Source: Halopseudomonas laoshanensis
GTDB lineage: Bacteria; Pseudomonadota; Gammaproteobacteria; Pseudomonadales; Pseudomonadaceae
NCBI RefSeq assembly: GCF_008365385.1
Contig: NZ_QOVF01000008.1
Span: 1 to 64,000, forward strand
Direction of reading: 5' to 3'
DNA length: 64,000 bases
Below, piece after piece: positions 188-61,426 of the stretch (position 1 is the first letter of the stretch; each line of letters begins with the position of its first letter). Position numbers and translations under genes: made by a program. The notes beneath the pieces were generated by a model that worked only from the letters and a program-made list of their open reading frames with translations, made no database searches and was not told the DNA's origin.

Positions 188-305
188 TGCTTGACGACCA
201 TAGAGCATTGGAACCACCTGATCCCATCCCGAACTCAGAAGTGAAACGATGCATCGCCGATGGTAGTGTGAGGTTTCCTCATGTGAGAGTAGGTCATCGT
301 CAAGC
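188..305 (+). rRNA. rrf: 5S ribosomal RNA
   Basis: A complete 5S rRNA of about 118 nt. It begins TGCTTGACGA and ends in the complementary TCGTCAAGC, which forms the terminal helix. The loop core with CCATCCCGAACTCAGAAGTG and the GAGAGTAGGTC segment is diagnostic. It follows 23S as in a standard rRNA operon and is followed 8 nt later by an intrinsic terminator. Any protein reading frame across this interval is fortuitous. Confidence 0.97.
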
Positions 306-30051: not shown

Positions 30052-31803
30052 TCACTCACCCAAGGCTACGCCATCCAGTCGTGGGTCGGCACCACCGCGC
30101 CATTGCCCATCGACCCATTCGATGCCGTGCAACCCGCTGGTCATAGACACGAGGCTCACCTCATGGCCCAGCGCTTGAAGTGCGGATACCTGCTGGTTCA
30201 GCGCAGTACCGGCTTCCAGTTCCAGCCCCAGGCCGCGGTCCAGGTGATTGGGCAGCGCGATGGCTTGCTGCACATCCATATTCCAATCCAGTACGCCAAC
30301 CAGGGCTTTAACAACATAACCGATGATCCGGCTGCCGCCGCGCGAGCCAATGACCAGTCTGGGCTCTCCATCGGCATCCAGGACTACAATCGGAGCCATT
30401 GAACTGCGCGGGCGCTTGCCGCCGGCCACGGCATTGGGGTGAGCGAGATCGCCCAACTGTGGATCGAAGCTGAAGTCGGTCAATTGGTTATTCAACACGA
30501 ACCCCTGGCTGAGCATTCGGCTACCGAAGGGCGCTTCATTCGAGCTGGTCAGCGCCAACAGGTTCCCTTGTGCATCGACGATACTGAAGTGCGATGTGCC
30601 GCGCTCATCCGCATCAGGCGCCAGCTCGATATCGCGTCTCTCCACGCGTTTGCCGGGCTCGCCGGGATGCACCTGAGTCAGTGCCTGCTCGGGCTTGATC
30701 AACATGGCGCGCTGGCGCAGGTATTCGGCATCGAGTAACCCATCGACTGGTACCCGGACAAAATCCGGATCGCCGATATAAGTGTTGCGATCGGCAAACG
30801 CCAGGCGACTGGCTTCGGTAATTAGATGCAGGCTGGCCGGACTACCTGGCGCCAACGCACTCATGTCAAAGTGTTCAAGCATGCCCATGATCTGCAATAC
30901 GCTGATGCCGCCGGAGGAGGGCGGAGGCGCGCCGCACAACGTCCATTCGCGGTAGGGCGCGCAGACCGCATCGCGCTTCAGTGCGGTATAGCCGGCCAGA
31001 TCTTCCAGGCTGATATCGTCGGCTCCCCAGCGCGCATTGTTGGTGCGCTGGACAAACTGTTGTGCGATGGGGCCTCGGTAGAAAGCCTGGGGGCCCTGAT
31101 CCGCAAGCTGCTGCAAGGTTCTGGCTAGGGCCGGGTTGCGTAATACGGGCGGCTCGACGCCGGCCTGGCGCCGGTAATACTGGCGTGTATCCGCGAACAG
31201 GCGCAGTGACCAATCGGCCTCTATCTGTCGCTGTAAACGGAGTGGCATCGGCAGGCCCGACTCTGCCAGCGCGATGGCTGGAGCCAGTAGCGTCGCCCAG
31301 GGTAAACGGCCGTGTTCCTGGTGGGCCAGGGCCAGCATCGAAACCAGCCCAGGCACACCGACCGACGAGCCGCTGGGAATAGCCAGCGCCAGCGGCAGCG
31401 AGGTGCCAAGAAACTGGAAGCGGTCAGGTTTGGCGGCAGCGGGTGCGGTTTCGCGGCCATCGTAAACCACCGGCTGTGCGCTTCCCGCTTGATGCAGAAG
31501 CAGAAACCCACCGCCGCCGATGCCGGTCTCGGGTGATTCGATCAGCCCGAGTACCATTTGCACTGCGATGGCGGCATCTACTGCATGGCCACCTTGACGC
31601 AATATATCCAGTCCGGCTTCCACCGCTAAGGGATGCGCCGCGGAGATCATCATCTGTGCCGCCTGACGTTCCGCTACCGGTTGAACGGTGCGCACGGCGG
31701 TCGCCGGATCGCTGCCGCTGCAAGCGCTCAGCAATACCAGCAAACTTATGCCCGCCCAGCGGGTCAGAGCGATGAGACGGGATGGCGGTAAGATTATCGA
31801 CAT
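30052..31803 (-). CDS. ggt: Gamma-glutamyltransferase, lipoprotein form
   Basis: 583 residues. The N-terminus has a lipobox (LLVLLSAC, Cys28), so it is probably anchored in the outer membrane; most bacterial GGTs are soluble periplasmic proteins. It is an Ntn hydrolase that cleaves itself before the catalytic Thr in ERGTSHFSIVD (Thr403). The SSGGISVLQ, RPRSSMAP and GSRGGSRI blocks build the glutamate pocket. It hydrolyses or transfers gamma-glutamyl groups, for example from glutathione. Start at ATG 31803 gives the lipoprotein signal; a TTG at 31827 is the alternative. It lies upstream of the amidoligase/GATase pair on the same strand. Confidence 0.92.
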   Translation of the reverse strand: MSIILPPSRLIALTRWAGISLLVLLSACSGSDPATAVRTVQPVAERQAAQMMISAAHPLAVEAGLDILRQGGHAVDAAIAVQMVLGLIESPETGIGGGGFLLLHQAGSAQPVVYDGRETAPAAAKPDRFQFLGTSLPLALAIPSGSSVGVPGLVSMLALAHQEHGRLPWATLLAPAIALAESGLPMPLRLQRQIEADWSLRLFADTRQYYRRQAGVEPPVLRNPALARTLQQLADQGPQAFYRGPIAQQFVQRTNNARWGADDISLEDLAGYTALKRDAVCAPYREWTLCGAPPPSSGGISVLQIMGMLEHFDMSALAPGSPASLHLITEASRLAFADRNTYIGDPDFVRVPVDGLLDAEYLRQRAMLIKPEQALTQVHPGEPGKRVERRDIELAPDADERGTSHFSIVDAQGNLLALTSSNEAPFGSRMLSQGFVLNNQLTDFSFDPQLGDLAHPNAVAGGKRPRSSMAPIVVLDADGEPRLVIGSRGGSRIIGYVVKALVGVLDWNMDVQQAIALPNHLDRGLGLELEAGTALNQQVSALQALGHEVSLVSMTSGLHGIEWVDGQWRGGADPRLDGVALGE

Positions 31804-31901
31804 AGTCGGCAGGCTAACCTGTGCCAAAGCCGCCGTCTAACGTTTGGCATTTTTGAGGTATTATTACAGGCGTTATTTCTTTTGACCCTTGAAGGCATTA
31901 A

Positions 31902-32090
31902 ATGACCAATTTAGCGGAGTTTCGGGCCGCGGAGCGTAAGCTTGCGCAGCAGCTGGCCCAACTGGAAAACATGAAGCAGGACGCCGGTCTGCAGCGGGAA
32001 TTGGCGTTCAGTGATGAGTTGAAAGCGTTGATGAAAAGCTACGGTTATTCGGCCCGGCAAGCGCTGGCCATTTTACAGTCGGCCGAGTAA
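31902..32090 (+). CDS. MvaT-like protein lacking the DNA-binding domain
   Basis: 62 residues. They align end to end with the N-terminal coiled-coil oligomerisation domain of the H-NS-like protein MvaT: EFRAAERKL..QL..LE, QD..LQRELAF..ELKALM, and Y..S.RQALAIL. Full-length MvaT is about 120-125 residues and has a C-terminal DNA-binding part (KNPH.GEVIETKGGNHKTLKEW type). None of the three frames in the 223 nt downstream encodes it, so this is either a truncated gene or a natural dimerisation-only antagonist comparable to H-NST. GAAGG lies 7-8 nt before the ATG, so it looks translatable. Confidence 0.7.
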   Translation: MTNLAEFRAAERKLAQQLAQLENMKQDAGLQRELAFSDELKALMKSYGYSARQALAILQSAE

Positions 32091-32313
32091 TTCCATCTCG
32101 CGAAAGACAGCTGCGTTTCCATAATGTTCCCAAAATCGCTATCATGGTGGCTTATTGGTGACGAATGTCGCCGAATGGCTGTTGATCGGTAGCGCGTACC
32201 GGTTTTCCGTCAAGCATGGTTGAGTTGCACACCAGGCTGGCCAAGAAACCGTTGACTTGTCCTGCTCTGGTGCCTGTGTAGCCGGCTGCCTTCACTCAGG
32301 AGCAAGAACCGCG

Positions 32314-33981
32314 ATGGATAAAGATCCCTCTTCAAATACCGGCATTGAGCCGGAAGATCCCGCCCTGGACGCCATCCCGGCACCTTCGGGCGAATCAACG
32401 CTGATCGATACCGATTACGTCATTGGCCAGGATAATATCAAAGGACAGTTTTCCTTTGCGCTGGATATCCACGGCAAGGTGTTCAGCATTTCGGCACTGA
32501 CCATTATTGCGTTCGTGATTCTCACGTTGGCACTACAGAATGACGTGGAGCCGATTTTCAGCGCTATCCGTGATTGGCTGACCGGTAATCTTGCCTGGTT
32601 CTTCTTGGGCGCCGCCAATATTTTCGTAATTCTTTGCCTGGTGCTTATCGTCTCGCCATTGGGCAAAGTACGCCTGGGTGGTATGGACGCCAAGCCGGAT
32701 CACTCCTATATGGGCTGGTTCAGTATGCTGTTTGCCGCCGGCATGGGTATTGGCCTAATGTTCTACGGTGTCTCCGAGCCGATGTCGCATTTTTCCGCGT
32801 CCATGGGTGGTGTTGCTGTAGGCGAAGAGGGTTTGCGTACTGACTGGGCGCCGTTGGCTGGTGCTGCCGGTGATGCACAAGCCGCTGCCAGTTTGGGGAT
32901 GGCCGCGACGATTTTCCATTGGGGTCTGCACCCTTGGGCCATCTACGCGATTGTGGCGTTGGCGCTGGCGCTGTTCTCCTTCAACAAGGGTCTGCCGCTG
33001 AGCATACGGTCGATCTTTTACCCGATTCTGGGTGAGCGGGTCTGGGGCTGGCCTGGGCATGTGATCGATATTCTTGCGGTGTTCGCCACCCTGTTTGGTC
33101 TGGCCACCTCCCTGGGTATTGGCGCGGAACAAGCCGCAGGCGGCATCGACTATCTGTTCGGTATTGCCGCTACGGACATGTCCAAGGTGCTGCTGATTAT
33201 CGGCATCACGGCGATTGCCTTGATGTCTGTGCTGGCCGGGTTGGATAAGGGCGTTAAGCGGCTGTCGCAGCTGAACATGGTTCTGGCGATCCTGTTGCTG
33301 GGCTTTGTCATTGTGGTCGGCCCGACGCTGGCGATTCTGACCGGCTTCTTCACCAACCTGGGCTCGTATCTCCAGCATCTGCCGGCGCTGTCCAACCCGA
33401 TTGGCCGTGAAGATGCCAACTTCAGCCAGGGCTGGACCGCGTTTTATTGGGCCTGGTGGATCAGCTGGTCACCCTTCGTCGGCATGTTTATCGCCCGCGT
33501 CAGCCGTGGCCGTACCGTACGCGAGTTTCTGATTGCGGTTCTGCTGGTGCCTTCGCTGGTGTCAGTGTTGTGGATGACAGCCTTTGGCGGTACCGGCATA
33601 GGTCAGTTCGTCAACGACGGATTTACCGGGGTGCAGGATGCGGCGTTGGAGTTGCAGCTGTTTGCCATGCTTGGTGAGCTGCCTTTGGCGGAAATCACCT
33701 CGTTCATCGGTATCATTCTGGTGATCGTGTTCTTTATCACCTCGTCGGATTCCGGCTCGCTGGTGATCGACACCATTACGGCCGGCGGAAAGGTCAATGC
33801 GCCAGTACCACAGCGGGTGTTCTGGGTGATCATCGAAGGCGTGATCGCTATTGCGCTGCTGCTCGGTGGTGGTCTGGTGGCATTGCAGGCCATGGCGGTA
33901 TCGACCGGCTTGCCGTTTACTCTGGTGCTGCTGGTCGGCTGTATCTCGATTGTTAAAGGGTTGATGTCCGAACCCCGTTAG
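32314..33981 (+). CDS. BCCT-family betaine/choline/carnitine transporter
   Basis: 555 residues with about 12 membrane helices. The family signature MGIGLMFYGVSEPMSHF is clear, as are the Trp-rich substrate helix (FYWAWWISWSPFVGMFIARVSRGRT) split across ~50 nt of DNA and the helix following it. It imports choline, glycine betaine or similar trimethylammonium compounds with Na+ or H+, for osmoprotection or carbon. The C-terminal tail is short, unlike the ~100-aa regulatory tail of BetT. Start 32314 has AGGAG about 11 nt upstream. A TTGACT box at 32252-32257 could be a -35 element. A terminator follows. Confidence 0.9.
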   Translation: MDKDPSSNTGIEPEDPALDAIPAPSGESTLIDTDYVIGQDNIKGQFSFALDIHGKVFSISALTIIAFVILTLALQNDVEPIFSAIRDWLTGNLAWFFLGAANIFVILCLVLIVSPLGKVRLGGMDAKPDHSYMGWFSMLFAAGMGIGLMFYGVSEPMSHFSASMGGVAVGEEGLRTDWAPLAGAAGDAQAAASLGMAATIFHWGLHPWAIYAIVALALALFSFNKGLPLSIRSIFYPILGERVWGWPGHVIDILAVFATLFGLATSLGIGAEQAAGGIDYLFGIAATDMSKVLLIIGITAIALMSVLAGLDKGVKRLSQLNMVLAILLLGFVIVVGPTLAILTGFFTNLGSYLQHLPALSNPIGREDANFSQGWTAFYWAWWISWSPFVGMFIARVSRGRTVREFLIAVLLVPSLVSVLWMTAFGGTGIGQFVNDGFTGVQDAALELQLFAMLGELPLAEITSFIGIILVIVFFITSSDSGSLVIDTITAGGKVNAPVPQRVFWVIIEGVIAIALLLGGGLVALQAMAVSTGLPFTLVLLVGCISIVKGLMSEPR

Positions 33982-61038: not shown

Positions 61039-61426
61039 TGGTGGAGCCGGGGGGATTTGAACCCCCGTCCGCCAGTCCTCCGCTATCGGTTCTACATGCT
61101 TAGCCAGCTCTACTGAGTTAACTCCTCACCGCCCGAGTGGCAGGGTGTTTGGAGCGAGTTACGTAATGTTTAGCCGCTTCGTCCGTAACATACTAGGCGA
61201 CGATTCTGTTCTATATGACAATCATTTCGAGTTTACAGACATCCTCTAATGATTGCTGGAGCCGAAGCTACCAGAAGTGCGACTAGGCTGCTTACGCAGC
61301 TAGTTGGGCACCGTAATTGTCATCATTGGCAATTATATAGGTTTGCAACAGTTTATTTACGAGTTCTGTTACCAACTCGGCATGCCCCTCCAGTTTTGTA
61401 ACCGTCGTCGAATCCAAATCGGCCCC
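61039..61426 (-). ncRNA. ssrA: tmRNA (SsrA)
   Basis: About 388 nt on the minus strand. The 5' end reads GGGGCCGATTTGGATTCGACG and the 3' end ...AAATCCCCCCGGCTCCACCA with CCA encoded, forming the alanine acceptor stem. The tag reading frame lies at 61292-61330 and encodes ANDDNYGAQLAA then a stop. tmRNA with SmpB frees stalled ribosomes and tags the nascent peptide for proteolysis. smpB lies just upstream on the same strand. No integrase sits at its 3' end. Confidence 0.97.

Follow-up and report, generated by a model that had tools for sequence, protein, structure and literature searches.

The window, a 64,000-nucleotide stretch comprising positions 1 to 64,000 of contig NZ_QOVF01000008.1 of Halopseudomonas laoshanensis, contains a plus-strand open reading frame of 62 codons that runs from ATG to TAA and encodes a product of 62 amino acids (Table 1). 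An earlier note, made from the sequence alone, had read the entire product as the oligomerization half of MvaT, and database searches bore this out. The NCBIfam model NF041859 (MvaT/MvaU family) aligned residues 1–60 of the protein with positions 1–60 of its 120 (E = 3.9e-17), at a score of 62.5 bits that lies below the curated cut-off of 75 bits, and a sequence search of the Protein Data Bank (PDB) matched the N-terminal domain of TurB (5b52; E = 1.5e-14) over residues 1–59. A Pfam scan of the product returned a single sub-cut-off match to an unrelated domain (E = 0.044) and nothing for Hha or the H-NS family; the NCBIfam matches were to MvaT models only. Searching the whole genome in six frames with NF041859, we recovered model positions 1–62 at this locus and one full-length MvaT of 125 amino acids elsewhere (C9), and no others. 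No DNA-binding domain (DBD) was matched in any frame after the short gene, nor in the 400 nt past its stop, in agreement with the same note, which had seen none in the 223 nt between the stop and the next ATG (32314). The locus carries the oligomerization half of the MvaT family without the DNA-binding half: the homologous N-terminal domain of the full-length MvaT/MvaU silencers is present, whereas the C-terminal DBD and a score above the family cut-off are not.

Table 1. Positions of the short gene, its neighbors, and the RNA genes in the window (position 1 is the first nucleotide of the window)
Feature	Position	Strand	Basis
5S rRNA gene	190-305	+	Rfam
ggt-like (gamma-glutamyltransferase) gene, divergent neighbor	30052-31827	-	ORF; homologue adjoins short gene in 17/36 loci
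5' untranslated stretch with Shine–Dalgarno-like GAAGG at 31891-31895	31884-31901	+	Read from sequence
Stand-alone TurB-like (MvaT family) oligomerization-domain gene	31902-32090	+	Profile, PDB, tree, and fold matches
Intergenic stretch, putative leader of BCCT-like gene	32101-32313	+	Conserved in H. pelagia group
Promoter-like site upstream of BCCT-like gene	32116-32145
BCCT-type transporter gene (555 aa), downstream neighbor	32314-33981	+	Homologue adjoins short gene in 31/36 loci
tmRNA gene	61039-61426	-	ARAGORN and Rfam

An AlphaFold2 model of the monomer, built from a 30-row alignment, predicted helices at residues 4–47 and 51–60 (mean pLDDT 75, pTM 0.37), and its best match among PDB folds was again the TurB N-terminal domain 5b52 (E = 5e-3, TM 0.59). 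A protein of the Hha/YmoA type is thus not indicated by either sequence or fold. Across the shared stretch, the product is 27% identical to the full-length MvaT of its own genome and about 25–42% identical to the full-length MvaTs of Halopseudomonas.

Neighborhood of the Short Gene

We take the two flanking genes to be a ggt-like and a BCCT-type gene. Upstream of the start codon, an AGG or GGA lies at a distance of 4–16 nt in 29 of the 36 short homologues described below, and no promoter-like site was found for the short gene. The intergenic stretch on its downstream side recurs with 88–92% identity at three further loci in the H. pelagia group, which come from two species (L004, L005, and L050; G, C, and L numbers are our labels for genomes, contigs, and loci), and probably serves the BCCT-like gene as its leader. 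A known Rfam RNA was ruled out here, with no match up to E = 5, and so was an mvaT remnant in the 223-nt gap: no remnant is present, and the gap holds instead this conserved stretch.

Conservation and Selection in Halopseudomonas

The closest named relative of the short protein, 93% identical, is found in Halopseudomonas pelagia. In an NF041859 census of 37 Halopseudomonas genomes, all 37 encode a full-length protein above the cut-off and 36 encode a short homologue; the single genome without one, G020, has a completeness of 79%. In length, the short homologues range over 58–74 amino acids; this set of 36 leaves out three loci with proteins repeating rows already included (L050–L052) and one with a broken frame (L090). 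The short homologue of G019 (L040) lacks five residues around position 28–32. Three genomes of the genus (G001, G008, and G031) have a further long copy each. The neighbors are retained as well: within sequence stretches that reach only 1.5 kb for most loci, 35 of the 36 short genes adjoin ggt-like and/or BCCT-like homologues, with both in 13 loci, only the ggt-like in 4, only the BCCT-like in 18, and neither in 1 (L031). Because the BCCT-like homologue lies at least 900 nt away in 12 of the 31 loci that have it, the two genes do not form a fixed operon.

A DBD within reach of a frameshift or of stop read-through was ruled out for the whole set. Family matches read through the stops of the 36 short genes end at model position 87 or earlier, and two DBD queries against the 400 nt past each stop gave nothing at E = 1. 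The coding sequences are under constraint. In codon alignments of nine disjoint close pairs, selected by hand from a pairwise listing, we counted 115.4 synonymous changes over 386.7 sites and 24.6 nonsynonymous changes over 1,317.3 sites, giving a pN/pS of 0.063; the nonsynonymous share was 0.18 when 0.77 is expected without constraint (binomial P = 4e-50). Conserved length and a low dN/dS, which the earlier note had named as speaking for function, both find a counterpart here.

The same note had allowed that the gene might be a decayed mvaT and had named a full-length orthologue at the same place in close relatives as the mark of a recent pseudogene. The outcome was otherwise: 0 of the 36 homologues have a DBD, and neither the 36 relatives examined nor the genome itself carry a full-length orthologue at the locus. 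That the short gene is a pseudogene of mvaT or mvaU, for which the missing DBD is the sole point in favor, is scarcely credible given an intact short frame in nearly every genome and neither relaxed selection nor variable truncation. Genuine decay can be seen elsewhere in these genomes and takes another form: G008 (C1:3564717-3565044) has an mvaT-like frame that is broken and retains part of a DBD, and a genome of another genus (G102) has a frameshifted one, also with a DBD remnant. Broken mvaT-like remnants with identical translations were also seen in two Halopseudomonas species (L157, G007:C7:1270962; L158, G003:C15:68394). Because length and locus are conserved, selection is purifying, and the proteins form a single clade (next section), it is well supported by these comparisons that the short gene has been kept for a function as a free-standing oligomerization domain.

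We also considered direct binding to DNA, by which the protein would displace MvaT from particular sites in the manner reported for the H-NST of enteropathogenic Escherichia coli (EPEC), whose C-terminal arginines are reported to mediate its binding of LEE DNA (PMC3897749). Two short homologues have basic C-terminal tails (L011 and L023), but no strongly basic tail was seen among the others, the short proteins average a net charge of −0.4, and the 62-residue product has a charge of 0; such a role appears very improbable.

As far as two pattern-based IMG/VR scans reach, carriage by phages was ruled out, neither scan returning a relative of the short family. Two phage records did match: the protein encoded by the first is full-length, and the second matched across MvaT residues 1–121, with an early stop in the frame. 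Among plasmids, a record whose match overlaps a hypothetical gene proved to hold a full-length homologue (the one record examined for length, with 113 other plasmid records matched).

Evolutionary Origin

We inferred a tree of the N-terminal domains from 112 rows and 62 columns, with identical full-length proteins dropped; it is weakly resolved in parts. A single branch sets all 36 short proteins apart (support 100/95; recovered in 99% of 200 bootstrap trees). This clade sits inside a branch (98/96) that also contains 20 long proteins from outside the genus plus a single long copy from Halopseudomonas and that we call TurB-like after its member L098, which nearly repeats the TurB chain of the PDB match. 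A separate MvaT branch (85/81) holds 34 of the 35 MvaT rows of the genus. The branch names MvaU and MvaT, and the use of MvaU for the TurB-like lineage, are our own assumption. The 35th MvaT row, from G019 (L039/L071, on C25, the only full-length MvaT of that genome), forms a long branch beside the TurB-like branch. Of the label given in the earlier note, an MvaT fragment, the family is therefore right, but MvaT proper is not, since the tree places the protein in the TurB-like lineage and its identity to the MvaT of its own genome is low.

The simplest reading of the tree would be that a TurB/MvaU-type paralogue lost its DBD once, ahead of the radiation of Halopseudomonas. Outside the genus, we searched 25 genomes of the same family (18 genera), hand-picked from at least 261, and found no intact protein consisting of the N-terminal domain only at E ≤ 1e-3; among these 25, the frame in G120 is broken, and two matches in G067 cover model positions 34/35–119.

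Interface Residues

TurB is described, in its own numbering, as having a terminal dimerization site at about residues 1–31 and a central one at about residues 32–58 (PMC13141940). The short proteins are like the N-terminal domain of TurB and of MvaU-like proteins in sequence and predicted fold over residues 1–60 and in core residues. Nine positions are invariant in all 36: F7, R8, L14, L18, L21, F36, L40, L43, and Y47. Of these, F7, R8, L14, and L21 are contacts of the TurB terminal site listed in PMC13141940, and F36, L40, L43, and Y47 belong to the central region, compared here by region and not by single contacts. Other terminal-site contacts given there have changed: E37, the salt-bridge partner of R8 in TurB, has given way to N, S, G, or A throughout the 36 proteins, A13 is likewise replaced in all, and M18 is L in all; 12 proteins differ at D27, 10 at L4, and 18 at G29, where one more has a gap. 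With these contacts altered, the terminal site may have become weaker or acquired another specificity. In addition to the exchange of E37 and the sub-cut-off score, the short proteins differ from TurB/MvaU-like proteins in having neither linker nor DBD.

Compared with most full-length members of the family, positions 12, 15, 35, 37, and 39 are altered; for this residue comparison, full-length proteins from outside the genus were split into MvaU-like and MvaT-like by their first letters only. At position 39, 32 of the 36 short proteins have E, and full-length relatives mostly have K (34 of the 35 MvaTs of the genus). Substitutions reported to lower oligomer formation in Pmr affect E6, R8, K15, Q18, R20, N27, and K49, and E35A and E37A do not appear among the oligomer-losing variants of the fragment Pmr_nt61 in the available part of the same paper (PMC4138198). 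Of those seven positions, R8 is kept in all 36 short proteins, and K15, which is A throughout, and K49 are kept in none. The pattern of exchanges would mark a distinct, constrained partner and is compatible with a preference either for MvaT or for the protein itself.

The latter possibility is part of a wider alternative in which the protein acts apart from MvaT, as a homo-oligomer or as an adaptor for some other protein, with an action that may be confined to the ggt/BCCT locus. The five altered positions could favor self-association, and the conserved locus would fit a local role; the varying distance to the BCCT-like gene, the retention of hydrophobic positions in both dimer regions, and the company that a second DBD-less family keeps with mvaT (below) argue against it. 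We consider action apart from MvaT rather unlikely.

A Second Family of Proteins without a DNA-Binding Domain

Searching 390 genomes of the order with the alignment of the short family, we found short open frames also in another taxonomic family, f36. Of six f36 proteins scanned, five match the N-terminal-domain positions of NF041859 (E = 1.2e-6 to 4.6e-4) without a DBD. The sixth is of another type, seen in three genomes of the f36 genus g54 (L151, L152, and L153 from G544, G467, and G332): it is about 64 amino acids long, and its C-terminal half weakly resembles the MvaT central dimerization region (E = 0.008, one tested). The taxonomic family f36 may be the Halomonadaceae.

With a query from this second family of proteins, counting the best match per genome, we obtained matches in 75 of 121 f36 genomes and 14 of 24 genera and none in the other 46 genomes; the count treats related genomes that are nonindependent, and two of the matches (G675 and G680) are weak. 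The proteins are 64–96 amino acids long (35 extracted from 43 loci, two of them duplicates; for example, L161 and L148, G629:C67:215937-216149), and pN/pS is 0.21 in eight disjoint pairs. Among the matches listed, full-length MvaT is present in all 121 genomes, and in 63 of the 75 genomes the second-family gene follows a full-length mvaT on that gene's strand, downstream by less than 2 kb in 42 genomes and by up to 20 kb in 21 others. Nine others are farther away, seven of them on the opposite strand, and three have no mvaT on their contig, again among the matches listed. By simple arithmetic, with 20 kb on a single strand set against a genome of roughly 4 Mb, chance would give less than one such placement. 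This association with mvaT is the best indirect evidence that DNA-blind N-terminal domains act together with the full-length silencer. One plasmid match from Halomonas is 60% identical to an f36 MvaT, and no separate second-family member was found in the 20 kb around this plasmid copy.

The two short families match each other in a profile comparison (E = 1.7e-9 over 58 columns). A common clade of both was not rejected by the AU test (p = 0.716), and the constrained tree even scored higher in what is a poorly resolved tree. The two families are perhaps of common origin.

Discussion

Our preferred reading, to which we give a probability of roughly 0.55, is that the short protein is an antagonist that joins MvaT oligomers and lowers silencing. 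Following the loss of its DBD in a TurB/MvaU-type paralogue, the free-standing oligomerization domain would enter oligomers of full-length MvaT, mainly through the central dimerization site. The resulting hetero-oligomers would have fewer DBDs per filament, and filaments would be weaker or their growth capped at the altered terminal site; silencing and bridging would be turned down, and the gene would serve as a rheostat on MvaT within the core genome. We infer the entry into MvaT oligomers because Pmr residues 1–61 are reported to oligomerize without the rest of the protein (PMC4138198), MvaT paralogues to form hetero-oligomers (PMC4138198 and PMC13141940), and silencers truncated to the N-terminal domain to be dominant-negative in some cases (PMC7074111). 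Hetero-association is not assured, because the MvaTs of the genus are so divergent from the short protein in the shared stretch, and the effect on DNA and its anti-silencing direction, which we deem plausible, would follow from the mechanism proposed.

The opposite effect is also conceivable. As a co-silencer, the protein would bind MvaT oligomers and strengthen or stabilize filaments and bridging, much as Hha/YdgT does with H-NS; according to PMC8501957, Hha/YdgT binds the H-NS dimerization site or N-terminal domain and stimulates bridging. A core, vertically inherited gene present together with MvaT in 36 of 37 genomes looks more like a standing cofactor than a weapon. The short protein, however, has an MvaT-type N-terminal domain and no Pfam match to Hha; subunits lacking a DBD would, on simple grounds, reduce affinity for DNA; and the slightly negative mean charge leaves no evident basic surface. 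This reading seems to us possible, though on the unlikely side.

Among known systems, the closest in span are the laboratory fragments Pmr_nt61 and TurB_nt61, which cover nearly the same residues and of which Pmr_nt61 is reported to oligomerize alone; these are constructs, whereas the short protein is the product of a natural gene under purifying selection. The H-NST of pathogenic E. coli is likewise an oligomerization domain of a silencer without a canonical DBD and is expected to act on the full-length silencer. H-NST, however, belongs to the H-NS family and is described in PMC7074111 as located on genomic islands, while the short protein belongs to the MvaT family, has no H-NS family match in Pfam, and is core, chromosomal, and syntenic through the genus, not carried on horizontally acquired islands. 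It would thus be H-NST-like in its proposed action yet no member of H-NST, differing in silencer family and in being core and vertically inherited. Other small proteins, such as Hha/YdgT and gp4 (Mip) of phage LUZ24, also act on the oligomerization domain of a silencer (PMC8501957); the short protein lacks the Hha match, and gp4 is phage-borne, while the short family has no relative in the pattern-based IMG/VR scan.

According to the earlier note, descriptions of such a role are uncommon for pseudomonads. The literature searches agree: among the listed titles and beginnings of abstracts, mainly open-access, none describes an MvaT protein that naturally lacks the DBD, and a table in a 2019 review lists H-NST as the truncated derivative for H-NS and "unidentified" for MvaT (PMC6936261). 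A survey of H-NS homologues states that it excluded those with one domain (PMC7544231). For H-NS, natural truncated antagonists have been described and lie on genomic islands (PMC7074111); for MvaT, the table of the review gives none.

Taken together with the second family, the short gene raises a broader proposal, for which we see about an even chance: DBD-less oligomerization-domain proteins would constitute a permanent component of MvaT silencing in this order, encoded in the core genome and setting filament length or bridging, and would be, as far as these searches go, the first natural truncated MvaT partners found. The gene is small, Halopseudomonas is not known for causing disease, the prediction suits standard MvaT assays, and the second family, most of it encoded close to mvaT, could be put to the same test. 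If the proposal is true, these bacteria would regulate silencing from within, by means of one full-length silencer and one DNA-blind paralogue that is part of the core genome and vertically kept.
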